A stretch of DNA of 46,877 bases from the IMG/VR virus record IMGVR_UViG_3300031974_002598, positions 1-46,877 of that record; one strand, 5' to 3'. Source of the stretch: a virus. This document shows, piece by piece, positions 9,811 through 45,311 of this stretch. The notes under the pieces are model-generated. The model ran no database searches. It saw only the letters and a list, made by a program, of their open reading frames with translations, and was not told the DNA's origin. Every line of letters starts with the position of its first letter. Within the stretch, counting starts at the first letter, position 1. A program made the translations under genes and the position numbers.

Positions 9811-9815
9811 GAATT

Positions 9816-10241
9816 ATGAGTCCATGGTTATTTCAAGGTTCGGTAGTTGATGAATTACCCGAAGGTTGCGAAGCATTCGTATACTTAATCACGAACAAAA
9901 AGAATGGTAAAAAGTACGTGGGCAAAAAACTTGCTAAGTTTAAAACAACCAAGCCGCCATTAAAAGGCAAAAAGAACAAACGCAGAGGCACAAAAGAAAG
10001 TGACTGGCGAGAATATTGGGGCAGTTCAGATCATCTCAAAGAAGATGTAGCAAAGTATGGAGAGGATAATTTTATTCGCGAAATACTGCATATTTGTCCC
10101 AGCAGAGGAGTTGCTAGTTACTTAGAAGCAAAAGAGCAATTTGAAAGAGAAGTATTGTTAACAGACGATTACTATAACGGAATCATCAATGTTAGAGTAG
10201 GTGGTTCAGAAATTTTGCGTGAAGCACTTAAAGGTGACTAA
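9816..10241 (+). CDS. GIY-YIG-like endonuclease domain protein
   Basis: 141 residues. The N-terminal part reads FVYLITNKKNGKKYVGKK, matching the two-part GIY-YIG motif (here VYLI...KYVG). Then follow a basic stretch (KGKKNKRRGTKESDW) and a conserved-looking glutamate segment (YLEAKEQFEREVL), as in GIY-YIG proteins. It could be a free-standing homing endonuclease or a structural protein that reuses the fold; no intron is evident nearby. It ends the gp55-gp46 operon and is followed by the structured-RNA region. Confidence 0.7.
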   Translation: MSPWLFQGSVVDELPEGCEAFVYLITNKKNGKKYVGKKLAKFKTTKPPLKGKKNKRRGTKESDWREYWGSSDHLKEDVAKYGEDNFIREILHICPSRGVASYLEAKEQFEREVLLTDDYYNGIINVRVGGSEILREALKGD

Positions 10242-31028: not shown

Positions 31029-31106
31029 CTGTGTAGGTAAAATTTACAAACATATACACATAACAGTACACACTTCATTTATAGACTAACAGAGGTGAGT
31101 ATCACT

Positions 31107-31403
31107 ATGACAGAAATTTTTGAATTAATAGCCGATGTCGGCGCACCCATTGCAGGTTCTATTGTCATGGGTTTCTTTATCTTTTTAGTCATTAAACAAA
31201 TAATGGAAGGAATTGTAGACCAGGTTAAAACTCTGACTATGTTTTGCAAAAGTTTAGAAGCAAGAGCAAGTACTATGAGTAACGAAATGATGAAAATAGA
31301 TTTGTTAGTCAGTAGTGCATTAGAGCTACGTCCTGACACAGAACGTATTTCACGTGCAGAAAATTTTGTCGAAGACGGCAAAGTGGATGCTAGGAGAGAT
31401 TAG
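31107..31403 (+). CDS. Small membrane/coiled-coil protein A (curli operon first gene)
   Basis: 98 residues from ATG 31107, chosen over the GTG at 31095 because AGAGGTGAG is well spaced before the ATG. One transmembrane helix (about residues 10-35, PIAGSIVMGFFIFLVIKQIM) is followed by a long charged helix. It is similar to the next gene: both have 'I.D.G.PI', one membrane helix, then 'ID.L...V...LE.R'. The pair looks like a duplication. It could be a holin-like or an inner-membrane partner of the secretion channel. Function unknown. Confidence 0.75.
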   Translation: MTEIFELIADVGAPIAGSIVMGFFIFLVIKQIMEGIVDQVKTLTMFCKSLEARASTMSNEMMKIDLLVSSALELRPDTERISRAENFVEDGKVDARRD

Positions 31404-31750
31404 TGGACGAAGTAACCGGAGTAGCACAACTTATAAGTGATTATGGATTTCCTATAGTCATGATGGTAGGACTGGGTTATTTTGTGTATTTTATTTGGAA
31501 TTTTATTGGAGAACACATAGACCCAGCATTAGAAGAAATGCATATAGCATTAATAAGGGTTATAGATAAAACCCGTATGCTGGATCAAGACATGATCAGA
31601 CTACAGCAAAAAGTAAATGTGGTATTAGAGTATAGAGCTAAAGAAAAAATTATTAAGCAAGCAGAACAGCAAAAACTGATTGATGAGCTGAAAGCAAAAA
31701 ATAAACCTTTAGGCAGTGCAGTAATACCCAAGGAGAGTAAAACAAAATGA
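31403..31750 (+). CDS. Small membrane/coiled-coil protein B (paralogue of A)
   Basis: 115 residues, GTG start at 31403 overlapping the upstream stop, with AGGAGAG upstream. N-terminal membrane helix (YGFPIVMMVGLGYFVYFIWN), then a helical domain with LDQDMIRLQQKVNVVLEYRA and a lysine-rich tail. Overlaps the CsgF gene by four bases (ATGA). Its coupling to csgF suggests a role with the channel, but a holin/antiholin pair with gene A is an equally open possibility. Confidence 0.75.
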   Translation: MDEVTGVAQLISDYGFPIVMMVGLGYFVYFIWNFIGEHIDPALEEMHIALIRVIDKTRMLDQDMIRLQQKVNVVLEYRAKEKIIKQAEQQKLIDELKAKNKPLGSAVIPKESKTK

Positions 31751-32292
31751 TGACAGACAAAGACTGGGCATTATTAAAAAGCCAAATAGGTCCTCACATT
31801 TGGACCGGTACAGATTTATTTAAAGCATTTGCGTTTGGATTGTTTTTAGGATTATTATTCATGAGTCCTTTAGCATTAGCAGACCAATTGACTCACAAGT
31901 TTAAAAATCCAAGTTTTAGTGGCGTAGGCACAGGCGCACATTACTTGACAATCGAAAACCAAGAAAAAAGTCGTAAAGACAAAATTAAGGACGATATAGA
32001 AGCGGCACTTAAAGCGGCACAAAGAGAGGAAGAAAACTCAACTCTTAATAAGTTCTTGAGAAACTTGGAAAGCAGAATTTACAGTCAGATATCTAAACAG
32101 TTAGTAGACAGTATGTTTGGTAACGAAGAAGGTGCTGACTACGGTGTGTTTACTATTGAAGGTAACACTGTAACATATGAAAGATTAATTGGCGAAGACG
32201 GTATAGAAATCATTCGCTTGATGATTGTTGCAGAAGACGGATCAACAACAACTATTGATATTCCAGTTGGTGTAGGAAATTTAGGCGGCTAA
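31747..32292 (+). CDS. csgF: CsgF-like curli assembly factor
   Basis: 181 residues. A 25-residue charged N-terminal segment precedes a hydrophobic signal (LFKAFAFGLFLGLLFMSPLALA) with probable cleavage after A45. The mature protein begins DQLTHKFKNPSFSGVGTGAH, matching the start of bacterial CsgF ('FxNPxFGG...'). In CsgF this segment enters the CsgG barrel and forms the second constriction. The C-terminal domain (SKQLVDSMFG, then YERLIGEDGIEIIRLMIVAE and TTIDIPVG) also follows the CsgF plan, which ends in a small beta domain. The long n-region is unusual. It overlaps csgG by one base. Confidence 0.88.
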   Translation: MMTDKDWALLKSQIGPHIWTGTDLFKAFAFGLFLGLLFMSPLALADQLTHKFKNPSFSGVGTGAHYLTIENQEKSRKDKIKDDIEAALKAAQREEENSTLNKFLRNLESRIYSQISKQLVDSMFGNEEGADYGVFTIEGNTVTYERLIGEDGIEIIRLMIVAEDGSTTTIDIPVGVGNLGG

Positions 32293-33185
32293 TGAAGAAC
32301 GGAATACTAGCAATTTTGCTTGCAATACTAACGTCTGGATGTGCTAGTTTGGCAGTACCAGGAAACAAAATGACTGGCGATTGGTGCTGGGACGCCACTA
32401 TGGAATGTATAGAGCCACCAAAGCAAGTAGAATTACCTACATATGAACAATTAAGAAAACTACCACCAGCAGAGCAACAGCCAGTGGTAGCAGTATATAG
32501 TTTTGGCGATTTAACCGGACAAAGAAAACAAGGTGATCAACCACTTTACAGTACAGCAGTTACTCAAGGTGCAAAGGAACTGCTAATAGATGCACTCAAA
32601 GCGGCAGGAGCAGGAGATACTGGAAACGGTACCTGGTTCCGAGTAGTTGAAAGAGGAATCAGTTTGGATAGTTTAATTCGAGAGAGACAAATTATTCGAA
32701 GCACCAGAGAAGACTATTCAAAAGTAACTGGAGAAGAACAACCAGAATTACAACCAATGTTGTTTGCTGGTATGTTATTTGAGGGAGGAATAGTTGGATA
32801 TGACACAAACGTAGAAACAGGCGGACTTGGTGCCAGATACTTGGGTATAGGTGGTACAAGTCAATACAGAAGAGACAGTGTAGTTGTTTCGCTTCGTGCT
32901 GTAAGCACACTAACAGGCGAGATTATACTTAATGTACAAACATACAAGACTATTTTATCAGTTGGCCTAGCAGGCGATGTATTCAGATTTGTCGACATGG
33001 ATACAAAACTTATTGAGATGGAAACTGGTATGACACAAAACGAAAGTGTAACATGGGCGGTTCGGTCAGCAATTGAAGCGGCTGTGTTGGCACTTATTGA
33101 ACAAGGCGATCAGAGAGGTTACTGGAATATAGATTATCCGGACGCGGATGATGTTCTAACTGATTTGATTGACCTAGACGATTAA
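32292..33185 (+). CDS. csgG: CsgG curli secretion channel lipoprotein
   Basis: 297 residues. Lipobox LTSGC with lipidated C17. The CsgG domain is unmistakable: VVAVYSFGDLTGQRK, YSTAVTQGAKELLIDAL, WFRVVERGISLDSLIRERQI, GGIVGYDTNVETGGLGARYL, GIGGTSQYRRD and QTYKTILSVGLAGDVFRFVD. CsgG forms a nonameric 36-strand outer-membrane pore that exports curlin subunits. Compared with my recollection of E. coli CsgG, constriction residues Y51, N55 and F56 correspond to G, L and Y here (segment QGDQPLYSTAV). Full length, no truncation. Located in a late-transcribed phage operon between CsgF and a curlin-like substrate. Confidence 0.96.
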   Translation: MKNGILAILLAILTSGCASLAVPGNKMTGDWCWDATMECIEPPKQVELPTYEQLRKLPPAEQQPVVAVYSFGDLTGQRKQGDQPLYSTAVTQGAKELLIDALKAAGAGDTGNGTWFRVVERGISLDSLIRERQIIRSTREDYSKVTGEEQPELQPMLFAGMLFEGGIVGYDTNVETGGLGARYLGIGGTSQYRRDSVVVSLRAVSTLTGEIILNVQTYKTILSVGLAGDVFRFVDMDTKLIEMETGMTQNESVTWAVRSAIEAAVLALIEQGDQRGYWNIDYPDADDVLTDLIDLDD

Positions 33186-33207
33186 TATGCATATTATAGG
33201 AGAAAAA

Positions 33208-33930
33208 ATGAATGCGAAGAGTTTACTTACCAGTGCCTTCGCGGTTGTTTGTTTAGGTATGAGCAGTATAGTGTTCGCTCAGAGCACCACAGACAATGAA
33301 ATACTCATCGAACAGGTGGGTGATACATTAAACCTTACAATTAACCAACAAGGTTATGGTAATAAAATATCAGGAGATAGTACACAGAGTACAGATCTTG
33401 TTATTACTGGGGCAACTCTAAATATCGATTTAGATCAAATTGGTAATAGCAATAAGTTTTATGGACCTATTACAGCAGACAGTTTTACTATGGATTGGAC
33501 ATTTACTGGTGACAGTAATATTTGGGACAATTTAATTGGTAGTACTGGTAGTGCTGATAGTGGCGACATTTTAGTAGATGTCACAGGTGATAGTAACACA
33601 TTTGATTTTGATCTAGCAAGTGTAACCAGTGCTGAGAGATTAGACATGGACTTTACACTTTTAGGTTCAAGTAATGTGTTTGATATCGACATCGAAGTAG
33701 ATGACGCAACATGGAACTTTGATATAACAGGCGATAGTAATAATTTCTTAACCAGTCAAACAGACGGTGCTTACCATTTCATGAAAGTTATTCATGATGG
33801 TGATAACGGAGACTTTGATTTAATTCAAAGTTCAGGTACATGTCCTACAGGTGTAACAAGTTGTTACAGTCACATTGATTTGGATATAGATAGTGAAAAC
33901 GCAACTGTACAAATTACTGTTACTGACTAG
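33208..33930 (+). CDS. Curlin-like secreted protein 1
   Basis: 240 residues from ATG 33208, preceded by TAGGAGAA; the ATG at 33187 lacks this site. Signal peptide with cleavage VFA/QST after residue 24. The mature part has degenerate curlin-type repeats built on Gly-x-x/Ser-Asn turns: QQGYGNKI, DQIGNSNKFYG, FTGDSNIW, VTGDSNTF, LLGSSNVF and ITGDSNNF, spaced about 22-34 residues apart with hydrophobic alternation between. This is the pattern of CsgA/CsgB amyloid subunits. It is highly acidic and low in basic residues. Two cysteines near the C-terminus (TCPTGVTSCYS) could form a disulfide. Probable CsgG substrate. Confidence 0.75.
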   Translation: MNAKSLLTSAFAVVCLGMSSIVFAQSTTDNEILIEQVGDTLNLTINQQGYGNKISGDSTQSTDLVITGATLNIDLDQIGNSNKFYGPITADSFTMDWTFTGDSNIWDNLIGSTGSADSGDILVDVTGDSNTFDFDLASVTSAERLDMDFTLLGSSNVFDIDIEVDDATWNFDITGDSNNFLTSQTDGAYHFMKVIHDGDNGDFDLIQSSGTCPTGVTSCYSHIDLDIDSENATVQITVTD

Positions 33931-35062
33931 TATTTTACAGGTTCAAATAAATGCCGCTGAGGCTCAAATTGGCGGCATTTTTGAACAAAGCGGTTCTGTA
34001 GGAGAAATTACCCGTGAAACAGGTGAGAGTATTCTAGCAGAACTTGAGGCCGGCATTGTTTCTATGGATGTAGTAGAAACTGAAAACGGCAGATTAAAAA
34101 TTCAATTTGTAGACGACACACAAGTTTCTATGACAGAACACACTGTAGTAGAAATAAACGAATATGTTTACGATCCCAATCCAAGCAACAGCAAAATGGC
34201 ACTTAACTTTGCACAAGGTACTGCAAGATTCGCCACAGGTAAATTAGGATTAGTACCCAGAGAAAATATACAAATACAAACACCCACAGCGGCAATCGGT
34301 ATTAGGGGAACAGACTTTACAATGACTGTGGACGAATTAGGCAGAAGTTTAGTAATACTGTTGCCAGATGCAGATTGTAATGACGCAAAAAAATTAGAAG
34401 AAGGCTGTTTACCGAGCGGAAGTATTAGTGTAACAAATCAAGGTGGTACACAAATACTCGACGAAGCATATCAAGCAGTTATGGTTAGCACTGCAGAAAC
34501 ACCACCCACAACACCGGTGACCATAGAAAATTTAGATTTAAACATGATTGACAACATGTTTATTGTGAGCCAGCCAGGCGAAGTACAAGAGGCAGTAGCG
34601 GAACAGGAAGCAGAAAATCAGGGTGTGGATTTGTTGGCGTTCGGAGATTTAGACATCGACTTTTTGGAAGAAAATTTATTGCAGGAAAATTTAGAAGATT
34701 TACAGTTTTCAGAATTAGACATTGATTATTTAGGTGTGGATTTATTGGCAAACTTTCTAGATGTAATAGATACAAGTCTAGATATGGATCCTGTTGGACA
34801 AGACAAACAGGACCAAGGTCCTGATAAAATAACAGGTACACTCAATCCTGGTTATGATCCTGTTACCATGTATAACACACTGCTAGACAACAGTGAATAC
34901 ATTTGGTTTTTAAGGGTAGTAGATGGACAAGGCCGTATATCAATCAAAATACCAGTAGGCGGTAACGCCAGAATTGAAAGTGAAACAGAAGGGACGCCGA
35001 GCATTATTTGTGTCAACGATTGTTCGGACATAAATATATACATAAGGCAGACACAGGGATAA
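33893..35062 (+). CDS. FecR-domain periplasmic protein
   Basis: 389 residues from GTG 33893. This start overlaps the curlin gene by 38 bases, but it encodes a convincing signal peptide (MKTQLYKLLLLTSILQ..., cleavage after AAEA, residue 24). The FecR domain covers about residues 35-135: GEITRETGES, LKIQFVDDTQVSMTEHTVV, ALNFAQGTARFATGKLG and IQTPTAAIGIRGTDF. The C-terminal half is acidic, with repeated 'DIDFLEENLLQENLEDL' segments, and ends in a small cysteine-containing domain (CVNDCSDINIYI). Soluble FecR-domain proteins often occur near CHASE2-type cyclases; one is encoded 5.5 kb downstream. Role as sensor or anchor for the curlins is inferred. Confidence 0.85.
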   Translation: MKTQLYKLLLLTSILQVQINAAEAQIGGIFEQSGSVGEITRETGESILAELEAGIVSMDVVETENGRLKIQFVDDTQVSMTEHTVVEINEYVYDPNPSNSKMALNFAQGTARFATGKLGLVPRENIQIQTPTAAIGIRGTDFTMTVDELGRSLVILLPDADCNDAKKLEEGCLPSGSISVTNQGGTQILDEAYQAVMVSTAETPPTTPVTIENLDLNMIDNMFIVSQPGEVQEAVAEQEAENQGVDLLAFGDLDIDFLEENLLQENLEDLQFSELDIDYLGVDLLANFLDVIDTSLDMDPVGQDKQDQGPDKITGTLNPGYDPVTMYNTLLDNSEYIWFLRVVDGQGRISIKIPVGGNARIESETEGTPSIICVNDCSDINIYIRQTQG

Positions 35063-35063
35063 C

Positions 35064-35924
35064 ATGAATATAGAAGAAAAATTAAAAAACATGAAACCAA
35101 GTGATACTCCATTGCTATGGCTTGGCTATACCTTATTGGGCATGATGTTGTTGTTAGGACAACCAGCAAATGCTCAAAGTGCCACAGACAATGTTATTAA
35201 TATCAGCAATCCTGTTAGTGCAGACAATTTAAATCTCGACATACAACAAGCCGGCTACGATAATGAAATCACATTAAGTATTGGCGGCTCATCAAACACC
35301 CTTGACATTTATCAATTGGGTGCAAAAAACACTACCAAGTATACAGACACATGGGGCTCAGGATATGACTGGGGCGGAGATTTAGCAGGCAACAACAATG
35401 ATATCACAGTAAAGCAATACACTGATACCAGCAAAAGTATCTCAGATAACTTTTTCGGCTTCCACATACAGGGCAATAACAACAATGTGTTAGTTGGGCA
35501 GGAATGGTACATAAATGATCAAGGTGTTTACAATACTAATCCTGGAAATGGCTGGGGAGATCATTATTTGCGATTAGACATACATGGTGATTACAATGAT
35601 ATCATTCATACTCAAAGAACAGACAGTGCAAGTGATGGACAAACATCTTATGTGAATGTATATGCAGATTATAATGATGTGTATATACAACAAAGACAGG
35701 GTCAGCACTCGATGAACATGACCATCAATAATGATTACAATGAAGTTTGGTTTACTCAAGCAGGGCAACCAGCACACACTGCCACTGTAACACTTGGTGG
35801 TAATTATCCTACAACTCTTACCGTACAACAAGGAGTACATGCAACTTCAAGTTCACTAAATTACTCCCTTACACAAGATTGTCAAACAGCAGGAGGTTGC
35901 ACTGTAAGTGTAACGCAACAATAA
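35064..35924 (+). CDS. Curlin-like secreted protein 2
   Basis: 286 residues. A long n-region (residues 1-18) precedes a hydrophobic signal with cleavage after PANA, residue 37. Repeats are of the curlin type: QQAGYDNEITLSIGGSSNTL, YQLGAKNT, DLAGNNNDITVKQY, IQGNNNNVLVGQE, IHGDYNDIIHTQ, VYADYNDVYIQQ, INNDYNEVWFTQAG and LTVQQG, with the Q/N ladder typical of CsgB/CsgA. It is richer in Gln, Asn, Tyr and Trp than curlin 1 and so is the better amyloid candidate. Starts two bases after the FecR stop; likely CsgG substrate. Confidence 0.82.
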   Translation: MNIEEKLKNMKPSDTPLLWLGYTLLGMMLLLGQPANAQSATDNVINISNPVSADNLNLDIQQAGYDNEITLSIGGSSNTLDIYQLGAKNTTKYTDTWGSGYDWGGDLAGNNNDITVKQYTDTSKSISDNFFGFHIQGNNNNVLVGQEWYINDQGVYNTNPGNGWGDHYLRLDIHGDYNDIIHTQRTDSASDGQTSYVNVYADYNDVYIQQRQGQHSMNMTINNDYNEVWFTQAGQPAHTATVTLGGNYPTTLTVQQGVHATSSSLNYSLTQDCQTAGGCTVSVTQQ

Positions 35925-36196
35925 TGGAATGTCCTGAAGGTTTAATTTGCTACACAGAAGAAGAATACGAAGAACTTCTTACTGTGATGGAAGAGCATGG
36001 TATCTTTGGTGACGAATTAGCAGAACTTGCTCAACCCGCAATGGGTGACGCAGAAGCAGTAGCAAACTTTACTTGGGAATTGTTGTTTCTCACACCCTGG
36101 GAACTAGCATACATAGCAATACCAATGAGTGTGTTAGCCACATACGGTTTAACTATCTACTTTGCGTATAAGTGGATTCAAAAGAAGTTTTCCTGA
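35924..36196 (+). CDS. Small acidic protein with C-terminal membrane helix
   Basis: 90 residues. ATG at 35924 overlaps the curlin stop by one base. An acidic N-terminal half (EEEYEELLTVMEEHGIFGDE) is followed by a membrane segment (about residues 58-83, ELAYIAIPMSVLATYGLTIYFAY) and a basic tail KWIQKKFS. Predicted single-pass inner-membrane protein with N-outside/C-inside topology by the positive-inside rule. Not recognised. Coupled to the curlin operon. Confidence 0.65.
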   Translation: MECPEGLICYTEEEYEELLTVMEEHGIFGDELAELAQPAMGDAEAVANFTWELLFLTPWELAYIAIPMSVLATYGLTIYFAYKWIQKKFS

Positions 36197-36197
36197 C

Positions 36198-36443
36198 ATG
36201 GGTTATACAGAAGCAGTATTAGTTTTAATACTGAGTACATCATCTGGCGAAATATTAGATAAACAAATTGTTAGATCATTTGTAAAAGATTGGCACTGCG
36301 TACAATTTTATTATGATCCTAAATATACTAGACCTTTACAACAACATGGCTTTGATTATTGGTTAGCAAATAAGGAATACGCACAACCAGGTTACACAAT
36401 CAGTTTTCAGTGTAAACATGTAGGCCCGTATTACACTGCATAA
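36198..36443 (+). CDS. Small protein of unknown function
   Basis: 81 residues from ATG 36198, just after the preceding stop; an in-frame upstream start at 36162 would overlap the previous gene. Composition is aromatic-rich (HCVQFYYDPKYTRPLQQHGF) with two cysteines, and no signal peptide or membrane span is clear. Reads like a small folded alpha/beta domain. Not recognised; last gene of the curli operon. Confidence 0.55.
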   Translation: MGYTEAVLVLILSTSSGEILDKQIVRSFVKDWHCVQFYYDPKYTRPLQQHGFDYWLANKEYAQPGYTISFQCKHVGPYYTA

Positions 36444-36465
36444 ATTAACAGAAAATTAATGTCGT

Positions 36466-36510
36466 TGTAACATAACCTTAACATTTCAAGCCCACTAAAA
36501 TCATAAATAT
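36466..36510 (+). promoter_or_regulatory. Direct-repeat box (Pho-box-like) and late promoter before the porin/transporter pair
   Basis: TGTAACA (36466-36472) and CTTAACA (36477-36483) are 7-mers in direct repeat with an 11-base period. A -10-like TAAAAT follows at 36496-36501, 12 bases later. This is the geometry of PhoB-type boxes (two 7-mers, four-base spacer, box in place of the -35). The late-like box CATAAATAT is at 36502-36510. The rest of the 207-base gap shows nothing I recognise. Downstream are a beta-barrel gene and a PiT-like transporter. The regulator is inferred. Confidence 0.35.
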
Positions 36511-36650
36511 ACTTGTAAAACATTAGACGTGAAGCCCACAAGGCATAGTACTGTTATTAATGTTTCACATATTAACACAATTAATATCAGAACGCAGACA
36601 CCATTAGGAAAAACTGTATTTCTGAACAACTAAACTTTTAGGAGTTCGAA

Positions 36651-37205
36651 ATGAAATCATTTCTAATTGGTCTCTGTGCTATAGTACTGACTATTCCTGC
36701 ATTCGCAGAGACCCCCTCAGAACAAGAATACAATTACAAAATCAAACAGGACGATTGGGAATACACTTTTCGTACCAGAGAAGATCGCTGGCATGTGGAA
36801 GTGGGCAACAAGGTAGGTCCTGTTGAAGTAATGTATAGATATGCAGATCAAGACGGTACCATAGAGAACCGTATTAAATTCACCACAGAGCTCTTTTCTT
36901 ACAAAGACCTTGTTACAGAAGGCAGAATGGAGTATCGTCATTTTGATAACAAAGAGTCACATTGGCGTTATCGTTTCATAGTAGAATACACTCCGCACAT
37001 TACAGGTAATCTTTATCTGTATGCGAAATGGCAACCTCGTTGGAGTTTTAAAGATGCTGGCACTAAGTTTGATGCCAGAGATCAATTGGGCATTACCTAT
37101 AAAGGTGATGGTTGGAAAATAACTCCTTTCATAGAACGCACTAGCACAGAGCACTATGAAAGAAAAATGACAGTGACAGGTATTCACTGGGAGGCTAAAA
37201 TATAA
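36651..37205 (+). CDS. Outer-membrane beta-barrel protein (KdgM-like porin possible)
   Basis: 184 residues. Signal peptide with cleavage AFA/ETPS after residue 19. The mature 165 residues alternate polar and aromatic/hydrophobic residues in about ten strands (WEYTFRTREDRWHVEVGNKV, PVEVMYRYADQDG, WRYRFIVEYTPHI, GNLYLYAKWQPRW, DQLGITYKGDGWKITPFIER). This is the signature of a small outer-membrane barrel similar in size and style to KdgM-type porins. The last residues (GIHWEAKI) do not end in aromatic F/W. SD is TAGGAGTT. Its stop overlaps the ATG of the PiT-like gene, so the two are probably made together. Confidence 0.65.
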   Translation: MKSFLIGLCAIVLTIPAFAETPSEQEYNYKIKQDDWEYTFRTREDRWHVEVGNKVGPVEVMYRYADQDGTIENRIKFTTELFSYKDLVTEGRMEYRHFDNKESHWRYRFIVEYTPHITGNLYLYAKWQPRWSFKDAGTKFDARDQLGITYKGDGWKITPFIERTSTEHYERKMTVTGIHWEAKI

Positions 37206-38149
37206 TGGATATGATGACTTTATTATGGACCGTGCTGGGCTTCAGCATGGCGTCATACACAGTTATCGCCAATGATAGTATCCAAACATTGGGCACATGG
37301 ATTCAATCCAACAAAGAAAAGTTTGATTGGAAAACCATGTGGCTGGGTGCAAGCAGTGTGTTACTGTTTGCATTGTGGTATGGATGGACTGTTAACGGTG
37401 GTGACATATCGTACGGTAGGCTAGATAGAATACCCTATATAGAACCACAATGGTATCACGCACTAGCACCAGGTGTGCTGTTAATACTGACTAGATTTGG
37501 TGTGCCAGTTAGCACATCGTTCTTAGTGTTAAGTGCATTTGCTAGTACCTTTGTGTTAGAAAAAATGCTGGTAAAAAGTTTTGCTGGCTACGGTGTTGCG
37601 GCTATTAGTGCCTATGCAATATGGGCAGTAATATCCAAATGGCTTAATAATGTACAACTGGGCGGCAGTGAGCGTAACTGGACTATTGCACAATGGACTG
37701 TTACTGGTTGGCTGTGGTGGACATGGTTAAGTCATGATATGGCTAACATGGCTGTGTTCTTGCCAAGAGAAGTTAGTGCAACAACACTAGCGGCTATTAG
37801 TGCATTGTTTATTGCTGGCATGGGTTTTATGTTCAGAGAACAAGGCGGCAAGATACAAGGTGTTGTTCAAAGCAAAACAGACACTAACTATGTTAAGAGT
37901 GCAACACTTATTGATTTAGTGTATCTGGTTATACTGTGGTACTTCAAACAGTACAACAACATACCAATGAGCACCACATGGGTGTTTATAGGTTTACTTA
38001 GTGGTAGAGAACTTGCTATTGCTACATTCCAAGGCGGATCAAAGAAACTGGAAGAAGTGTTTCCTGTGATTGCAGGAGACTTTGGTCGCTTGATGGTGGG
38101 TGTTGCGGCAAGCATGGGTATCATTATAGGTATTCATACACTTACCTGA
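37205..38149 (+). CDS. PiT/PHO4-like inner-membrane transporter
   Basis: 314 residues with about nine membrane helices. Two internal repeats each carry the paired PiT signatures. Repeat 1 has ANDSIQTLGT (near residue 23) and GVPVSTSFLVL; repeat 2 has SHDMANMAVFLPRE and NIPMSTTWVFIGLLSGRE. In the PiT family, 'GxND...' and 'P.ST' motifs line the phosphate/cation path. The protein is shorter than PitA (499) and the first motif lacks the usual 'GANDVAN' spelling, so substrate may differ. Coupled to an outer-membrane barrel, which suggests an uptake route across both membranes. A strong terminator follows. Confidence 0.6.
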   Translation: MDMMTLLWTVLGFSMASYTVIANDSIQTLGTWIQSNKEKFDWKTMWLGASSVLLFALWYGWTVNGGDISYGRLDRIPYIEPQWYHALAPGVLLILTRFGVPVSTSFLVLSAFASTFVLEKMLVKSFAGYGVAAISAYAIWAVISKWLNNVQLGGSERNWTIAQWTVTGWLWWTWLSHDMANMAVFLPREVSATTLAAISALFIAGMGFMFREQGGKIQGVVQSKTDTNYVKSATLIDLVYLVILWYFKQYNNIPMSTTWVFIGLLSGRELAIATFQGGSKKLEEVFPVIAGDFGRLMVGVAASMGIIIGIHTLT

Positions 38150-38150
38150 T

Positions 38151-38175
38151 AAATGGGGGCAATGCCCCCATTTTT
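38151..38175 (+). terminator. Strong intrinsic terminator after the transporter
   Basis: Perfect 10-bp stem AAATGGGGGC (38151-38160) / GCCCCCATTT (38164-38173), loop AAT and T-run to 38175. It also lies at the 3' end of the minus-strand genes below and could act in both directions. Confidence 0.9.
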
Positions 38176-38254
38176 ATACTAAAACTAGTTTAGTAATTTT
38201 ATCAATTCTTCCAGATTTCATCATCTTGTCGAATTTTTTAAAAAGTCTTTTCAT
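38174..38254 (-). CDS. 26-residue cationic peptide ORF
   Basis: ATG at 38254-38252 overlaps the stop of the upstream minus-strand gene as ATGA, with GGAGG eight bases upstream inside that gene. The peptide starts MKRLFKKFDKMMKSGRI and ends in KLVLV: seven Lys and two Arg against two Asp, and amphipathic if helical. The precise coupling and strong ribosome site argue that it is translated. Possible membrane-active or regulatory peptide; no homologue recognised. Confidence 0.5.
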   Translation of the reverse strand: MKRLFKKFDKMMKSGRIDKITKLVLV

Positions 38255-38550
38255 GTCATTTCCTCCAAGTCACGAAATTGACATGTCGTCCAACCTTCAG
38301 AATGGTGTAACTTAAAAGTTCGGTGAATGTTTTTGGGTAGTTCTACTTTGCGATATCGCCCTGTTGGGCACTCACGGTGTCGAACTATCTTGCCTTTGTA
38401 GACTGAACCATCTTGTAAATGAAAATAGATAGCAGTCTTACTCAGTGCAATTTGCTGTAAATCACTTCGCTTTATGTGATTGTCAGCCAATGCTGGTCCG
38501 CCTGTAAAGAGCAGGATCAACATGGCTACTATTCCTATTGGCTTCGCCAT
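38251..38550 (-). CDS. Small secreted periplasmic protein
   Basis: 99 residues from ATG 38550 (AAGGAG six bases upstream; two earlier in-frame ATGs lack a proper site). Signal peptide MAKPIGIVAMLILLFTGGPA, cleavage about LA/DNH at 22. The mature 77 residues contain two cysteines (HRECPTG and WTTCQF), likely a disulfide, and beta-like segments (TAIYFHLQDGSVYKGKIVRH). The only minus-strand gene, with its coupled peptide, inside the accessory block. It is not CsgE by eye. Function unknown. Confidence 0.65.
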   Translation of the reverse strand: MAKPIGIVAMLILLFTGGPALADNHIKRSDLQQIALSKTAIYFHLQDGSVYKGKIVRHRECPTGRYRKVELPKNIHRTFKLHHSEGWTTCQFRDLEEMT

Positions 38551-38580
38551 ATCCATCTCCTTATTGTTATGCAACTATTC

Positions 38581-38609
38581 TGCAACAGTAATGTTACAGT
38601 TTTGTTACA
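38581..38609. repeat. Triple 7-mer direct repeat with 11-base period (Pho-box-like)
   Basis: TGCAACA (38581), TGTTACA (38592) and TGTTACA (38603) are separated by four bases each. On the plus strand a -10-like TAAGAT (38621-38626) lies 11 bases beyond the last repeat. It lies in the divergent gap between 38550 (minus) and 38696 (plus). Related to the array at 36466-36483, which carries the reverse-complement 7-mer TGTAACA. Confidence 0.4.
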
Positions 38610-38659
38610 ATGTTATTTATTAAGATCGTATAAAGAATTAACAGAGTTGTGAATCTTTA

Positions 38660-38696
38660 TTGACAAAATCATACATTTCGTGTATTATATAATACA
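38660..38696 (+). promoter_or_regulatory. Sigma70 promoter overlapped by a 16-bp palindrome
   Basis: TTGACA (38660-38665), 17-base spacer and TATTAT (38683-38688). A perfect palindrome TGTATTATATAATACA (38681-38696) covers the -10 and the expected start site, as an operator for a dimeric repressor would. Drives the small membrane/lipoprotein genes from 38696. Confidence 0.7.
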
Positions 38697-38833
38697 TGAA
38701 ACATATGATAAAATGGCTTAAAATCTGTGCTATGTTACTCACAGTGCTGATAGCCATATCAATTATACAGTTAGCAGTTCACAGTATTGAAATAGGATAC
38801 GACCTCATGTATCACAGTGATGGACGACCCTAA
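38696..38833 (+). CDS. Small membrane peptide (possibly leaderless)
   Basis: 45 residues. ATG at 38696 lies where transcription from the promoter at 38660-38688 should begin, so the mRNA would be leaderless or use the second ATG at 38705. Sequence: basic N-terminus (KHMIKWLK), one hydrophobic helix (CAMLLTVLIAISIIQLAV), then an acidic/polar tail. Its 3' end overlaps the next gene by 14 bases. Confidence 0.5.
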   Translation: MKHMIKWLKICAMLLTVLIAISIIQLAVHSIEIGYDLMYHSDGRP

Positions 38834-39131
38834 CAAAATAGACGAACTGTTTAACAAATATATCACCCAACGACTTAGAGGCGGATTACATATTGCATAT
38901 GGTATGCTGTATGTACAAATCAGTCTAATATTCCCATACTTCTTTTATGTGACAATATGTTTAAGTGTCGTAGTCTATTACATATATCTCTGTGAAAAAT
39001 ATGGCTACATGATAGACCATTACACATTTGAAATGATAAGGATCAATGCACACCCAGACCCCGTATTTACTCCAATGCCAGCACCTGAATTCTTTGATCA
39101 TGCTGGCATAGTCGATAAATATATAATGTAG
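38820..39131 (+). CDS. Small two-span membrane protein
   Basis: 103 residues from ATG 38820. An N-terminal charged segment is followed by a hydrophobic region (GMLYVQISLIFPYFFYVTIC, then LSVVVYYIYL) that can form a hairpin of two membrane helices, and then a cytosolic tail with HPDPVFTPMPAPEFFDHAG. Not recognised. Lies in the same transcript as the preceding small peptide, ahead of a terminator-like hairpin. Confidence 0.6.
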   Translation: MDDPNKIDELFNKYITQRLRGGLHIAYGMLYVQISLIFPYFFYVTICLSVVVYYIYLCEKYGYMIDHYTFEMIRINAHPDPVFTPMPAPEFFDHAGIVDKYIM

Positions 39132-39144
39132 GCAAGAAGCCTAT

Positions 39145-39173
39145 AACAGTATAGCAGTTGGCTTACTGTTTTT
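39145..39173 (+). terminator. Probable intrinsic terminator
   Basis: Nested stem AACAGTA (39145-39151) with AGC inside, loop AGTTG, GCT, then TACTGTT (39164-39170) and a T-run. One bulged T in the stem. Confidence 0.6.
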
Positions 39174-39186
39174 ACAAGGAGAGAAT

Positions 39187-39462
39187 ATGAGAAGCATGCT
39201 CAGTATTCTTGCAGTCCTTGGTATATTTTTACTACCATCATGTGCCTCAGTTGGAGCAGTGATTGAAGGTGGTAAAGAATTTACTACAGGTGTAGTAGAT
39301 GGATCTGTTAAGGCGGTTTCAACAATAACCGGAGCCGTTTTAGAAGATGCATCTAACATCGTTGAAACAACAGCAGAAGTTACACAAGGTGTGGTGGAAA
39401 CTGTTGGTAATGAAATCGACGAGCAGACCGACGAACTGCAAGACGCTCCAAAAAAGGACTAA
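39187..39462 (+). CDS. Small acidic lipoprotein
   Basis: 91 residues. Lipobox LLPSC with lipidated C19 after a short signal (MRSMLSILAVLGIF). The mature part is a Val/Thr/Glu-rich helix or turn repeat (GVVDGSVKAVSTITGAVLED, TTAEVTQGVVETVGNEIDEQ) ending in PKKD. AAGGAGAG precedes the ATG. Small lipoproteins in phages can act in lysis (Rz1-like), superinfection exclusion or envelope anchoring; nothing here decides between these. It is not proline-rich like Rz1. Confidence 0.7.
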   Translation: MRSMLSILAVLGIFLLPSCASVGAVIEGGKEFTTGVVDGSVKAVSTITGAVLEDASNIVETTAEVTQGVVETVGNEIDEQTDELQDAPKKD

Positions 39463-39493
39463 GCCTGTTCTCCCGTCGCAAGGAGAGTAAGGC
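39463..39493 (+). other. Hairpin downstream of the lipoprotein gene
   Basis: GCCT/AGGC plus TCTCC (39469-39473) / GGAGA (39482-39486) with an internal bulge and loop CGTCGCAA. No T-run, so it is more likely an mRNA-stabilising or processing element than a terminator. It sequesters the AGGAGA sequence, which otherwise looks like a ribosome site. Confidence 0.4.
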
Positions 39494-39515
39494 CAGTAAT
39501 AGTGAGGATATTAAA

Positions 39516-39572
39516 ATGTTGATACAACAAATTAAAAAATATTGTACAACCAATCCTCAGGAGTGCGAATAA
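39516..39572 (+). CDS. 18-residue peptide ORF
   Basis: MLIQQIKKYCTTNPQECE, ATG 39516, GAGG about eight bases upstream. The stop codon abuts the ATG of the next gene, so translation may be coupled. Two cysteines. Could be a leader peptide for the downstream secreted protein rather than a functional product. Confidence 0.35.
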   Translation: MLIQQIKKYCTTNPQECE

Positions 39573-40076
39573 ATGAAAGCGGCAATGTTAATAGCATTGT
39601 CGCTTTTATCTTTTAGTGCATCAGCAAGTCTTTCCCAGCAACAAATACATGCTATACAAAATGGTTGGCATGCACCCTATAGTCAAAAAACAATAGATAG
39701 AGTATTACAACAAGATACTTTGATTACGTTTGATGATACTCCCAAATATACTATAGTCAATATAAAAACAGAACCTGCAAGTAAATTGCATTGGGCAACT
39801 TTTTGGACGTTGCAACTATTAGATATTTACACTACAAACAAAGGTATGCAATATGACTGTGTAACAGAACTCAACCCTTTACTACCTAAGAGACCCTCAT
39901 TGTTTAGACTTACTTTACACAAAGGTATGTTTTTAACCCCTCTAGTTTTATTAGATAAAGAACTGGCATTCACAGACGCTGAACTTATAAGTGGAACACT
40001 TATAACAGGTGGTGTAGTTGCAAGTAACTTTAACGTCATTAAAAACGCAAAACGCAAGTGTAACAAAATTAGATAA
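39573..40076 (+). CDS. Secreted/membrane protein, DUF5658-like
   Basis: 167 residues. Signal peptide with cleavage about ASA/SLSQ at residue 18. The middle region reads HWATFWTLQLLDIYTTNKGM and then TELNPLLPKRP, with LHKGMFLTPLVLL and a further hydrophobic segment. This 'LDxxTT...xELNPL' arrangement recalls the DUF5658-type small membrane proteins. The basic C-terminus (NAKRKCNKIR) should stay cytoplasmic. Function unknown. The last codons contain the late promoter for the next gene. Confidence 0.55.
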   Translation: MKAAMLIALSLLSFSASASLSQQQIHAIQNGWHAPYSQKTIDRVLQQDTLITFDDTPKYTIVNIKTEPASKLHWATFWTLQLLDIYTTNKGMQYDCVTELNPLLPKRPSLFRLTLHKGMFLTPLVLLDKELAFTDAELISGTLITGGVVASNFNVIKNAKRKCNKIR

Positions 40077-40080
40077 ATAT
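40072..40080 (+). promoter_or_regulatory. Late promoter within the end of the upstream gene
   Basis: GATAAATAT overlapping the stop codon of 39573-40076, 25 bases before ATG 40105. Confidence 0.6.
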
Positions 40081-40104
40081 CAGTGTAAGGTAGGAGTTAC
40101 ACAC

Positions 40105-40572
40105 ATGATGGAGATCGCCGCGGCCATTTCTTTGGCCAGCACTGCATTCAATGCACTCAAAAAAGGCATGGAAACCGGTCGTGAAATCGAGGATATGATC
40201 GATTATTTTGGCAAATGGTTTGAAGCCAAAGAAGCATTGAGCGAGCAAAGCATTAACAGCCAAAATCAACCTTTAGTTAAAAAACTGTTTTCAGGCAACA
40301 GTGTTGAAGCACAAGCATTACAAATTACACATGCCAAACATAAAATAAAACAAATGGAAAAAGAGTTGTATGAGTACTTGTTGTATACAGGACAGCAAGA
40401 ATTTTACAACGACATGATGCGTGAACGCAGAGCAATTCGTGAAGCACGTTTTAGAGAAGCTCAACGCATAGCCGAGCGTAGAAAACTGATATTTGATATA
40501 GTAGTTGGTGGCGCTTTAATAGTAATAACTGTATTCCTCATTGTGGGAATGTTTAGTATAGTTTTATCATAA
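40105..40572 (+). CDS. Conserved T4-like phage membrane-anchored helical protein
   Basis: 155 residues from ATG 40105 (TAGGAGTT upstream; a second ATG follows at 40108). N-terminal EIAAAISLASTAFNALKKGM and the middle PLVKKLFSGNSVEAQALQI, then a charged helix (MRERRAIREARFREAQRIAE) and a C-terminal membrane span (IVVGGALIVITVFLIVGMFS). I recognise this arrangement from hypothetical proteins of marine T4-like phages. Its role is unknown to me. It has its own late promoter, so it is likely virion- or lysis-related rather than part of the curli unit. Confidence 0.7.
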   Translation: MMEIAAAISLASTAFNALKKGMETGREIEDMIDYFGKWFEAKEALSEQSINSQNQPLVKKLFSGNSVEAQALQITHAKHKIKQMEKELYEYLLYTGQQEFYNDMMRERRAIREARFREAQRIAERRKLIFDIVVGGALIVITVFLIVGMFSIVLS

Positions 40573-40581: not shown

Positions 40582-42654
40582 ATGAAATGGTTATACAGCG
40601 GCTGGGCCGTAGCAATTACAGTTTGTTTACTAACAGCACTTAGAGTAACAGACCCCACGCCTGTACAAAGTTTGCGTTCACAGACATTTGATTACTACCA
40701 ACAACTAGATGAAGTCAAACAAAGCAACGAAGTTGTAGTAATAAACATAGGCGAAAAGAGCCTACAACAATGGGGACAATGGCCTTGGCCCAGACAGAAC
40801 ATAGCACAATTGATATCCGACTTGAGAAACTCAAACGCAGGCATCATAGGTCTCAACGTGATGTTTCCGGAACCAGACAGATTTGGTGGCGACGAAGTAC
40901 TAGCCAGTTGGATGAACCAAAACGGCATAGTTTTAAGCCAGACCCCATCTTCCAGAGGCATAAAGAGTTCAGGCCCACATATTGGTACAGCCACAATAGG
41001 ACCAGCACCAGCGACTGATTATTTACTGACGTGGCCTAACCTAGTAACAAACATAGAACAATTAGAAAATGTAGCAGACGGTATAGGAGTAATTGCAAGT
41101 GCTCCGCAACCAGACAATCAGACCAGAACATATCCCTTGGCTGTTGGTGTAGAAGAAAAAATATACCCATCGTTTGCTATAGAACTACTCAGGGTATATA
41201 CTGGTAAGCCAAGTTATGTTCTGAAAACGTCTGAAATAGGTGTACAAGAGTTTGCTGTACCTCCTTTTGAACCTATTATAACACAGCCTGATGGAACAGC
41301 CTATATTCGTTTTAACAATACATTTGAAGAATACGAATATGTAGATGCGAGTAAACTGCCTGACTTAGGTGGAAAGTTCGTTATTGTGGGTGTAAGTGCA
41401 GAAGGTGTTGCCAATCCGGTACCCACACCGAGAGGCAACATATTACCACATTACATACAAGCCCATATGACGCAAAATTTTATTGACGGCAGTAACATTA
41501 CCCGTAATGAGTTATCAGCACTGATAGAGCTTCTGATAGCGTTCTTGAGTATGACATTGATAGCAATAGCAATATACAAGTTACCTGTGTGGGCAGGACT
41601 AGTAACTACAGTTACTATTATAGGCGGAATTGTATACTATAGTGTGCAGTCTTACACTGCCAATTTAGTTTTATTTGACGCAACATTTCCTGCATTAAGT
41701 GCGTTCTTGATATTCACACAAAGTTCATTTAATAACTTTTGGATACAATTTAAACTTAGACAGGAAATCCAAAAGCAGTTTGCAGGGTACTGCTCGCCTA
41801 CAGTTGTGCGTATGCTTCAACAAAACCCTGCACTGATCAAAGACGGTATGAAACGAGAGATCAGTATTTGCTTTAGTGACTTGCGTGGCTTTACTCCATT
41901 GGGAGAAAGTTTTGGCGATGATGTACAAGGATTAACAAAGTTAATGAACGGTTACATGGACGCAATCACACAACCTGTACTTGACGCAGACGGAATGATT
42001 ATCAAATATATTGGTGATGCCAGTATGCATGTACACAATGCACCTAACGATGATCCGCGTCATGCACACTCAGCAGTTATGACAGGACTAAACATGTTAT
42101 CAGCAGTGGAGGACTTTAATGAGAAAATTACTGCAGAAGGCAGACCACCCATTGGTATGGGGGCTGGCATTAATACTGGCTTGGGCTATCTTGGGGAAAT
42201 GGGTTCTACATCGAGACACTCCTATGACGTTCTGGGAGACGCTGTTAGCACAGCCGCAAGAATTGAATCAAAGTGTAAAGAGTACGGATGTTTATTACTT
42301 GTAGGCGAAAACACTTATAAAGAAACCTATGACGAGTTCTTTTATCTCAAAGTAGATGATTTGGCAGTAAAAGGCAAGAGTGTGGGCATTACAATATACA
42401 CAGTGTTAAGCACCTGGGACTATGCTTGGGAAAGCACTAACTGGCCCGCAATACAACCACAGCATGATAAAATGCATGAGTGCTATCGTAATCAAAGTTT
42501 TGATATGGCAATACATTTTTGCAAACAGCTCAAAGGCGAGTTTGATGGTAAAATGGATGCATATTATGACATGTGGATTGAACGTTGCGAGTTTCAGAAA
42601 ACACAAGACTTGCCTGAAGACTGGAATGGCGTATTCATAGCCACCAGTAAATAA
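40582..42654 (+). CDS. CHASE2-domain adenylyl cyclase (class III)
   Basis: 690 residues, full length. N-terminal membrane helix; periplasmic CHASE2 domain (about 25-310) with VVVINIGEKSLQQWGQWPWP and IGLNVMFPEPDRFGGDE; three membrane helices (about 315-395); class III cyclase domain (about 425-610); and a C-terminal TPR-like tail ending LPEDWNGVFIATSK. Catalytic residues: metal Asp D433 (FSDLRGF) and D479 (KYIGD), adenine-selecting pair K475 and D549 (YDVLGD), and transition-state Arg R560. The usual Asn of the 'VNxAxR' motif is Ser (S556, VSTAAR). Expected to make cAMP in response to a periplasmic signal. No good ribosome site is visible before the ATG. Confidence 0.92.
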   Translation: MKWLYSGWAVAITVCLLTALRVTDPTPVQSLRSQTFDYYQQLDEVKQSNEVVVINIGEKSLQQWGQWPWPRQNIAQLISDLRNSNAGIIGLNVMFPEPDRFGGDEVLASWMNQNGIVLSQTPSSRGIKSSGPHIGTATIGPAPATDYLLTWPNLVTNIEQLENVADGIGVIASAPQPDNQTRTYPLAVGVEEKIYPSFAIELLRVYTGKPSYVLKTSEIGVQEFAVPPFEPIITQPDGTAYIRFNNTFEEYEYVDASKLPDLGGKFVIVGVSAEGVANPVPTPRGNILPHYIQAHMTQNFIDGSNITRNELSALIELLIAFLSMTLIAIAIYKLPVWAGLVTTVTIIGGIVYYSVQSYTANLVLFDATFPALSAFLIFTQSSFNNFWIQFKLRQEIQKQFAGYCSPTVVRMLQQNPALIKDGMKREISICFSDLRGFTPLGESFGDDVQGLTKLMNGYMDAITQPVLDADGMIIKYIGDASMHVHNAPNDDPRHAHSAVMTGLNMLSAVEDFNEKITAEGRPPIGMGAGINTGLGYLGEMGSTSRHSYDVLGDAVSTAARIESKCKEYGCLLLVGENTYKETYDEFFYLKVDDLAVKGKSVGITIYTVLSTWDYAWESTNWPAIQPQHDKMHECYRNQSFDMAIHFCKQLKGEFDGKMDAYYDMWIERCEFQKTQDLPEDWNGVFIATSK

Positions 42655-42904: not shown

Positions 42905-43528
42905 TTATTCGTCAGGACTCCAAAGTTGTGCACCCATAAAGAAGTTGTAGTAATGTCTAAAGTCTTTCATTAGTTGCCTTGCATGAAATAATTCTAACGG
43001 TATGTTATCATCATGTTTTGTAAACGGCCAATAGTATCTGCTTATAATACGTTCTAGTCTTTTAATATCTCTGGATAAAGCATCTAACAACTGGTTACTA
43101 AATTCTTTATCACTTACTAATTCCAACAGCCAATGATGAACAGGATTTTCAGGATTAAAACGCCTAAACATATCTCTAGTTTCATAAAAAAGTGCCTTAA
43201 CTGGATTTATGTCATTTCTGTATTTGATTAAAATAGTAGGAAACATAAAGTCAGAACTGGACGTTTCTAATTTGTTAATAATGGAATTATATTCTTTTCT
43301 TAAATTTTTACGCAGATGAGGAATACTTTTTTCTATAAACACTTCGTAATCTGTTATAAGTTTTGTAGCAAGTTTTTTGTGTTTAGGAGAATAGTAAGGC
43401 ATACACTCCTTGATGTCATTTATACTGAAGGCACCTTCTAGTAAATCGTGAGGAACTGTACCAGTTTCTTCGTAACGGTTCAATTCAGACTGTATTCTTA
43501 TGCAAAGTATATCAACTACACTTGCCAT
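42905..43528 (-). CDS. Helical protein of unknown function
   Basis: 207 residues, mostly alpha-helical and charged (IRIQSELNRYEETGTVPHDL, RKNLRKEYNSIINKLE, LLDALSRDIKRLERIISRYY), without cysteine clusters or membrane segments. GGAGG lies seven bases before the ATG. It belongs to the same minus-strand run as the Nudix and gp15 genes. I do not recognise a family. Confidence 0.65.
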   Translation of the reverse strand: MASVVDILCIRIQSELNRYEETGTVPHDLLEGAFSINDIKECMPYYSPKHKKLATKLITDYEVFIEKSIPHLRKNLRKEYNSIINKLETSSSDFMFPTILIKYRNDINPVKALFYETRDMFRRFNPENPVHHWLLELVSDKEFSNQLLDALSRDIKRLERIISRYYWPFTKHDDNIPLELFHARQLMKDFRHYYNFFMGAQLWSPDE

Positions 43529-43542
43529 GTATCCTCCAAAAA

Positions 43543-43968
43543 TTAAAGAGTGTTAATGTCCAGGATTCTGTGTAGTTTGTCTGTTCCTTGATTTCTCAGA
43601 AGAGTAACCTTTGCTCCTTGGTGTAAAGGCTGTGGCCAGTTACCTATATTGACCCATGCATATCCTGCACTTTCGTCATTTAATGACGGGTGAAATTCTT
43701 TCTCTATTACTGCAACAAAACTATAGTAATAAAAGTTTTTATCTTTACTTTCGTAAATATCTATAGGGTTTAATTTTGCTAACTCAGGCATAAAACCTAT
43801 TTCTTCAGTTAATTCCCTTTGCAATGTTTCAAAAGGTGTTTCACCTTTTTCGCAAACACCACCAAAAAATCCCCATGTATGCTTAAATCGTTTGTCACTA
43901 TTTCTTAGTTGTAATAAACACCTGCCTGTGTCTTTTGCTAAGAACAAAACTCCTGCGGCCATTGTCAT
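43543..43968 (-). CDS. Nudix hydrolase
   Basis: 141 residues from ATG 43968, which overlaps the gp15 stop by one base; an upstream in-frame TTG is less likely. A perfect Nudix box (GX5EX7REUXEEXGU) is present: GVCEKGE, seven residues, RELTEEIGF. N-terminal strand GVLFLAKDTGRCLLQLRN and KHTWGFFGG precede the box as expected. Hydrolyses a nucleoside diphosphate linked to X; possible targets are oxidised nucleotides, ADP-ribose, NAD or mRNA caps, not decidable here. T4 itself has a Nudix protein (NudE.1). Confidence 0.9.
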   Translation of the reverse strand: MTMAAGVLFLAKDTGRCLLQLRNSDKRFKHTWGFFGGVCEKGETPFETLQRELTEEIGFMPELAKLNPIDIYESKDKNFYYYSFVAVIEKEFHPSLNDESAGYAWVNIGNWPQPLHQGAKVTLLRNQGTDKLHRILDINTL

Positions 43969-45311
43969 TACAGTATTAACCTCCAATAACCTGGATTGTA
44001 AGTACCCTCATGACTACTAATCCATGCAGAATCTTTCCAAGTATATTGTTTATTTGTAAAACTGTTTACTACCCACTCTTGATCAGTTTGATTATCGGAA
44101 TCAAAATCCACATACCACTTCACACCATCAAAAGCAATGATGTCATTAGCACTTGCTGTTATGCCCCACTCTGTGTATGACGGAGTTATATCTTCAGTGA
44201 TTAAATATCTTTGTGTTGAATCTTGTGGAGGTAAACCAATACCAGGCCTGTTAGAATGTGGATTGATAATTTTTGTTAACGGTGTTAATGTATTACTTGG
44301 CAAAGTATCATTATCTAAATTAAATATTAAACTAGCACCACTTAGTGGATTTGCAGTAACACCACCAATTACCATTTTTGTTCTATCTTCATGGTCATCA
44401 GTTGTATTTAATTCCAGTCTGGAAGTTTCTGATATTTCTCCCAACTGATTAATAATATCACCCCACTCTGCAACATTACCTTGTGGGTCTACTAATGTTG
44501 CTGTTCCACCCTGCAATCTAACCCTATAGTCATTAGGAGCAACAATAATAGTACTATCAGCATCTAGTTGGCCAAAGAAATCATAGTATGCACTATCAAA
44601 TCCTAAATCTGCTACACTGTTAGTATTATGTATGTCTGTTAAGATTTGCTGAATAATTTTTTGCCTTTGTACTTTGGCAGGAGGTGAAATCCAAATTGGT
44701 ACGGCAAATGTTAATGTAGCGATATCTAAATTTTCATCTACCCCTTGCGGTAATGTTCTACTGCTCCAATTTATGTCAGTCATCTCCACTTCGAAAACAG
44801 AGCTCCAATCTAGCGGATTATCGTTGCTTTGTAATTGTATACTTGGATTAAATATAACAAAAATTTGTTCTAAGATTTGTAATTTTGTGTCAGTATTTGT
44901 TGTCCAAACGTCAACTTGTAGCGACATATTATATGGAACTGGCATGTATCTTTTAGTGGTATACAGATTACCCTGCTCACTGGTATATACATTCTCTTCT
45001 TTGTTCCACTCACGCTCTGCCACTTGTTTTGTATCTACAAAATAAGGTTCCTGAATTCTGTCTCTGGCAGGCTGTATGCTTTGTATACTTAATGTAATTT
45101 GTGGTGCAGAGTTAATAGCATTTTCTGAATTGTTACGCAATATGTGTGCAACCATTCTGCTGATGTCGCCATAACGAGCAGGCACACGATTATAATGTAC
45201 ACCGTTGCTGGTGTTTTCTTTAACCTTGAAATTTGAAAATACTCGTACTAACTGAATTAGATAACGTTTTATCTGTTCATCGTACCAGTAATCTAAGTTT
45301 TTACCTGCCAT
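43968..45311 (-). CDS. gp15: Tail sheath stabiliser / tail completion protein gp15-like
   Basis: 447 residues. The N-terminal ~230 match the T4 gp15 layout: YWYDEQIKRYLIQLVRVFSN, VPARYGDISRMVAHILRNNS, YMPVPYNMSLQVDVWTTNTD, LQILEQIFVIFNPSIQLQ and TLTFAVPIWISPPAKVQRQK. gp15 forms the hexameric ring that caps the sheath and tube and binds the neck. The protein is longer than T4 gp15 (272); the C-terminal ~200 residues (VNSFTNKQYTWKDSAWISSH near the end) are an added domain. Its start overlaps a 40-codon gene by 11 bases. Confidence 0.8.
   Translation of the reverse strand: MAGKNLDYWYDEQIKRYLIQLVRVFSNFKVKENTSNGVHYNRVPARYGDISRMVAHILRNNSENAINSAPQITLSIQSIQPARDRIQEPYFVDTKQVAEREWNKEENVYTSEQGNLYTTKRYMPVPYNMSLQVDVWTTNTDTKLQILEQIFVIFNPSIQLQSNDNPLDWSSVFEVEMTDINWSSRTLPQGVDENLDIATLTFAVPIWISPPAKVQRQKIIQQILTDIHNTNSVADLGFDSAYYDFFGQLDADSTIIVAPNDYRVRLQGGTATLVDPQGNVAEWGDIINQLGEISETSRLELNTTDDHEDRTKMVIGGVTANPLSGASLIFNLDNDTLPSNTLTPLTKIINPHSNRPGIGLPPQDSTQRYLITEDITPSYTEWGITASANDIIAFDGVKWYVDFDSDNQTDQEWVVNSFTNKQYTWKDSAWISSHEGTYNPGYWRLIL

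Follow-up and report, generated by a model that had tools for sequence, protein, structure and literature searches.

Genes at the locus and their phage setting

The window, the whole stretch of 46,877 bases of the virus record, carries an open reading frame at 40582-42654 (+ strand) with an ATG start and no internal stops. Its product is a CHASE2 class III adenylyl cyclase (AC) of 690 aa, assigned from Pfam matches to CHASE2 and Guanylate_cyc, from an AlphaFold2 (AF2) model and from PHROG 35576, a family of unknown function that matches over the full length (9e-154). Genes for a late sigma factor, SbcCD, portal, protease, major head, tail sheath stabiliser and lysozyme are found on the same record. 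The cyclase segment and these phage genes form one contig, and the identical junction was seen in dozens of independent contigs, which disposes of the concern raised in the initial annotation that the segment might not be joined to a phage genome.

Upstream, also on the + strand, lies a curli-FecR module. It opens with two small membrane proteins (102 aa, 31095-31403; 115 aa, 31403-31750) that have no Pfam family and are kept in Methylophilales phage Melnitz, Pelagibacter phage HTVC008M and many contigs. These are followed by a CsgF homologue (31747-32292; PF10614, E 2e-14), a homologue of the outer-membrane curli pore CsgG (32292-33185; PF03783, E 9.8e-46), a curlin-like secreted protein (33187-33930) recognised by its conserved position and weak matches to CsgA/CsgB NCBIfam models, a FecR-domain protein of 389 aa (33893-35062; PF04773, E 2.8e-11) that resembles bacterial FecR neighbours and is the proposed CHASE2 partner, and a curlin-repeat protein (35064-35924; PF07012, E 1.3e-5). 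About 4.7 kb of small genes then lead to the cyclase. The contig holds csgF, csgG, curlin, FecR, second curlin and AC together; the initial annotation had the cyclase gene right and left the module at 31.1-35.9 kb, evident from its Pfam matches, unconnected to it.

The same genes in the same order make up the T8SS-FecR-AC module (csgF-csgG-curlin-FecR-curlin-adenylate cyclase; HTVC008M gp019, Melnitz_103) that Wittmers et al. 2022 reported from pelagiphages, podoviruses and myoviruses alike, arguing for an alphaproteobacterial source (PMC9599517); earlier papers treated csgFG only (PMC7029224, PMC9004378). In Melnitz and HTVC008M the AC ends a csgF-csgG-curlin-FecR-(curlin or hypothetical)-AC cassette, and csgG, FecR and AC co-occur on 21 IMG/VR contigs, some of them near-identical. 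The gene order of the module is conserved across phage groups, in these 21 contigs as well as in the two isolates. Unlike the pelagiphage module, that of the window belongs to another phage group and has several small genes between curlin and AC. One or two ‘histidine kinase’ genes were placed before csgF in the published module (PMC9599517). Pfam found no kinase domain in the two small proteins at 31095-31750, which at 102 and 115 aa are unlikely to be these genes.

By tblastn, the Melnitz cyclase was 53% identical to the window protein over its full length and that of HTVC008M 34%, and a scan of IMG/VR yielded at least 99 stretches encoding relatives, 79 of which were retained as distinct loci. 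The cyclase gene and its phage module are already known, in pelagiphages and a methylophage, and the earlier description of the gene as very unusual for a virus does not stand. A one-off acquisition or contig artefact was rejected, as independent contigs and two isolate genomes show the gene with the same flanks. Related contigs, including a record of 340 kb, carry portals 64-83% identical to that of the window, against only 36% for Melnitz and HTVC008M; the nearest named phages by portal are PA5oct-type jumbo phages (~54%). The T8SS-FecR-AC module therefore reaches jumbo-type marine myoviruses; our literature search found no paper combining jumbo phage, curli and CsgG. Elsewhere in the window, the region 8638-10241 encodes a radical SAM protein (QueE-like match) and then a 141-aa protein with conflicting annotation, its matches including both homing endonuclease families and a PHROG labelled NAD synthetase.

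The ORFs of the spacer between module and cyclase (35879-40572) are small, poorly conserved and mainly on the same strand; membrane helices or signal peptides occur in several of them, and the gene content of the spacer differs among related phages. At one locus (L071, in the 8 kb surrounding the match) the cyclase is flanked on both sides by the curli-FecR module, which is on the opposite strand, and the cyclase thus need not be the final gene of the operon. Given the ~4.7 kb spacer of the window and this inversion, strict co-transcription is not conserved.

Architecture of the cyclase

The CHASE2 sensor domain occupies residues 13-320 (40618-41541; PF05226, E 1.6e-39) and the class III catalytic domain residues 424-601 (41851-42384; PF00211, E 1e-16), the latter also recognised by a residue survey and by PDB fold matches. 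The domain search proposed in the initial annotation thus returned both expected domains, each above its curated cut-off. Three membrane helices (residues 312-333, 336-361 and 368-400; 41515-41781) are predicted between them from AF2 secondary structure, and a C-terminal helical extension (residues 612-690; 42415-42651) is missing from one subset of Asn-type viral relatives. The AF2 model (mean pLDDT 76.7, pTM 0.56) runs from an N-terminal membrane helix (residues 7-23) through CHASE2 and the three helices to the catalytic domain, which is the layout of CHASE2 proteins, with an extracytoplasmic CHASE2 flanked by one N-terminal and three further membrane helices. The count of three helices given earlier was accurate for those after CHASE2 but missed the fourth that precedes it.

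The modelled catalytic part superposes on CyaB, CyaC, Cya2, Rv1625c and Ma1120 in a PDB fold comparison that probed the catalytic domain and barely CHASE2; against CyaB (3r5g) VIA-align gave a Z of 20.7 and an rmsd of 2.6 over 184 residues. Confidence of the model was low at residues 475-489 and 538-551. A chance ORF is ruled out by homologues and purifying selection. The Pfam domains, the AF2 model and the adenylyl-type residues confirm what had been proposed for 40582-42654, an intact and complete transmembrane CHASE2 class III cyclase on a phage contig.

Active site and the Ser556 lineage

The catalytic residues of the window cyclase are D433 and D479 (codons at 41878 and 42016, + strand) for the metals, K475 and D549 (42004 and 42226) for adenine, R560 (42259) and, at the position occupied by Asn in most class III cyclases, Ser556 (42247-42249), exactly as listed in the initial annotation. 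The combination of Lys with Asp, Thr or Ser that specifies adenine is present as K475 and D549, and in the Asn-Arg pair of the transition state Arg560 is present with Ser556 in place of Asn.

D433, K475 and D479 were unvarying in 82 viral relatives and R560 was kept in all 81 that cover the position. The survey of residue 556 that had been suggested gave two types: positions 549 and 556 are Asp/Ser in 43 of the 82 proteins and Ser-or-Thr/Asn in 38, one being truncated, and Ser556 is accompanied by Asp549 in 43/43. The Asp/Ser type forms a single clade of catalytic domains (100/100 support). Median dN/dS was lowest in the Ser-type catalytic domain (0.048), compared with 0.083 in the Asn-type and 0.10-0.12 in CHASE2, which makes the Ser-type domain the most constrained portion of the protein.

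Ma1120 of Mycobacterium avium has the same Lys/Asp adenine pair and a non-Asn transition-state residue, is active, and loses its activity when Asn is put back (PMC4215837); unlike the window protein it has Ala rather than Ser, is without CHASE2 and is not a phage protein. Asn is therefore typical of class III cyclases and not required. Taken together, the single Asp/Ser clade, its strong constraint and the active Ma1120 support Ser556 as a fixed trait of one catalytic lineage rather than decay, in line with the option, offered earlier, of a lineage that tolerates Ser. The replacement of the transition-state-stabilising Asn and the low model confidence near residues 475-489 and 538-551 would suit a catalytically weak or dead cyclase, retained for its CHASE2 sensor or as a scaffold, yet we consider this highly improbable: the catalytic domain with the Ser is the most constrained one, the remaining catalytic residues are kept in every relative, a swapped domain is always another intact cyclase (see below) and Ma1120 works without the Asn (PMC4215837). 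The further active-site losses that a sensor-only remnant should leave were found in none of the 82 viral relatives, which refutes that reading, and a pseudogene was likewise rejected by the invariant catalytic residues and purifying selection.

Bacterial cyclase domains were inspected in ~56 cases (the 30 best matches from 398 genomes and 26 further CHASE2 cyclases). All have Asn556 and all but one have Ser or Thr at 549, the exceptional domain having Arg at 549 and also Arg replacing Lys475. A bacterial source of the Ser/Asp lineage was not found among these ~56 cyclases, and a degenerate-peptide scan of genome contigs gave only one distant relative, in Variovorax. In a tree including bacteria, the phylogeny that had been called for, the Asp/Ser type stays a separate, long-branched viral clade, apart from bacterial CHASE2 cyclases and of unsure placement. 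The SAR11 16S probe pattern matched 0/398 genomes.

Exchange of sensor and catalytic domains

Sensor and catalytic domain gave opposite pictures of relatedness. Melnitz and the window share 38% in CHASE2 and 85% in the catalytic domain, whereas a second locus (L037) shares 85% with the window in CHASE2 and 42% in the catalytic domain. On the CHASE2 tree the catalytic type switches 8 times, at least 5 of these being forced by well-supported branches, and a single clade was rejected (AU p 3e-5). Trees of downstream genes also required switches, 8 for the sheath stabiliser, 6 for the Nudix gene (43543-43986) and 8 for the gene at 42905-43528. L006 and L037 are colinear, with ~81% DNA identity to either side of the catalytic domain, which alone cannot be aligned; the pattern repeats in L005 and L038, with matching flanks and a different catalytic domain. 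Between L003 and L037, dS was 0.32 for CHASE2 and 1.58 for the catalytic domain. DNA identity profiles and blastn blocks placed the crossover points between phages in the membrane-helix region (~codons 285-400).

In one pair (L004 and L036) the DNA is identical to ~codon 345 and diverges permanently afterwards, and an assembly chimera is possible there. As a general cause of the swaps an assembly chimera was rejected on the evidence of L006/L037 and L005/L038, in which both flanks match and the catalytic domain is the sole difference.

Judging from these alignments and trees, CHASE2 and catalytic domains have been exchanged independently and repeatedly among related phages, with two catalytic lineages, each with metal, Lys and Arg residues intact, alternating behind a conserved CHASE2. 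A limited literature search found no published report of sensor/catalytic exchange. To the known module this analysis adds a phage lineage with Ser/Asp, catalytic cassettes that can replace one another, a jumbo-phage setting and, as described below, the parallel with bacterial FecR-CHASE2 pairs. These natural domain swaps, one sensor with two catalytic domains, provide ready comparisons for the effect of the Ser/Asp variant.

FecR beside bacterial CHASE2 proteins

A FecR-domain gene lies no more than 1.4 kb from the CHASE2 cyclase at 7/7 alphaproteobacterial loci examined, that of S. meliloti CyaK among them, directly upstream in five, and the phage FecR aligns with four of these neighbour FecR proteins. 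Among gammaproteobacterial CHASE2 loci FecR was within 6 kb at 7/20, and the pairing is therefore not obligatory. Two of the seven alphaproteobacterial FecR-CHASE2 cyclase pairs (L084 and L087) adjoin NHLP-type peptide export genes, a context hinting that such pairs may watch export machines generally.

Two studied systems have a similar arrangement. In Sinorhizobium meliloti the neighbour of cyaK encodes FecR, TPR-like and beta-barrel-like parts, and from its position, size and domain layout we infer that this ORF is NsrA, an outer-membrane receptor whose signalling to CyaK is accompanied by a rise in cAMP (PMC7529298, PMC13001267). As in the phage, the NsrA-CyaK/CyaD system has the gene of a FecR-containing envelope protein adjoining a CHASE2 class III cyclase (PMC7529298, PMC13001267), and the window cyclase is ~28% identical to CyaK. 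The S. meliloti FecR is fused to TPR and beta-barrel domains, whereas that of the phage is a separate 389-aa protein; the S. meliloti system has no curli genes, and its receptor Clr is known. In the Burkholderia BiofilmReg operon, which affects biofilm, a LysM-FecR protein is paired with a CHASE2 sensor much as in the phage, but the output is a histidine kinase rather than a cyclase (PMC5192318).

Neither FecR nor a CHASE2 cyclase was found near bacterial csgFG (0/32 loci, within ~20 kb around each), indicating that phages joined two systems. The phage module thus appears to combine curli export with a FecR-CHASE2 signalling pair, each bacterial, which makes more precise the comment already in print that AC and FecR do not belong to the curli operons of bacteria (PMC9599517).

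The cyclase might instead act independently of the curli genes, its cAMP reprogramming host carbon metabolism or timing lysis, the roles suggested in the initial annotation, with adjacency due to a shared hypervariable island. The 4.7 kb spacer of the window, made up of unrelated small genes, and the inverted L071 arrangement fit this, as do the position of pelagimyophage curli genes in a hypervariable region (PMC7029224) and the phage curli regions that have no cyclase (PMC9599517). We nevertheless regard it as rather unlikely, since an identical gene set and order is found in three phage groups and FecR, the sole non-curli envelope gene of the module, is the one that recurs beside bacterial CHASE2 cyclases.

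Proposed role in the infected cell

Our preferred reading, to which we give a probability of about 0.6, is that a phage envelope module has its cytoplasmic output in a functional transmembrane adenylyl cyclase, and that a FecR/CHASE2 trans-envelope sensor tied to curli export makes cAMP. We infer the FecR-CHASE2 contact, the signal, the product and the receptor as follows. During infection, periplasmic FecR, with the CsgG/CsgF pore and the curlins, would present a signal to CHASE2, which may be a ligand from outside or how far export through the pore is under way. CHASE2 would then drive dimerisation or rotation of the catalytic domains via the membrane helices, giving the infected cell a pulse of cAMP. 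A search of 11 phage records, among them the complete ones of Melnitz and HTVC008M, gave no cNMP-binding (PF00027) protein. The receptor would therefore presumably be supplied by the host, most likely as a CRP-family or other host protein.

A Pycsar-like or superinfection-exclusion role, in which attack on the envelope by another phage would lead, through a cyclic nucleotide, to activation of a membrane effector, would suit the exclusion of competing phages by phage curli suggested in print (PMC9599517) and the match of the catalytic domain to PADLOC PycC models (best 6.6e-16, residues 423-566). These matches are, however, limited to the generic class III core. Pycsar uses pyrimidines, whereas the Lys475/Asp549 pair specifies adenine. 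No effector to pair with PycC was found by PADLOC in eight proteins of the curli-cyclase region, the seven other than the cyclase matching no PADLOC defence family, and the cNMP-binding domain is absent from the 11 phage records. Defence-type roles are weakly supported on this evidence, and we hold this one to be improbable.

Returning to the envelope module, the domain exchanges extend it to a broader picture that we put forward tentatively, as a possibility somewhat short of even odds: marine phages may share a recombining pool of a CHASE2 sensor and two interchangeable cyclases, the Asp549/Ser556 type being unseen in sampled bacteria, that would read the state of the phage curli/FecR proteins as virus-encoded trans-envelope signalling. 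If such a virus-encoded transmembrane second-messenger system exists, some marine phages would wire an outside signal into the infected cell, beyond lysis, and the FecR-CHASE2 link to bacterial signalling offers a testable mechanism for the phage module. The Nudix hydrolase gene at 43543-43986, directly between the cyclase and the tail sheath stabiliser and kept in most related contigs, could process nucleotide products.
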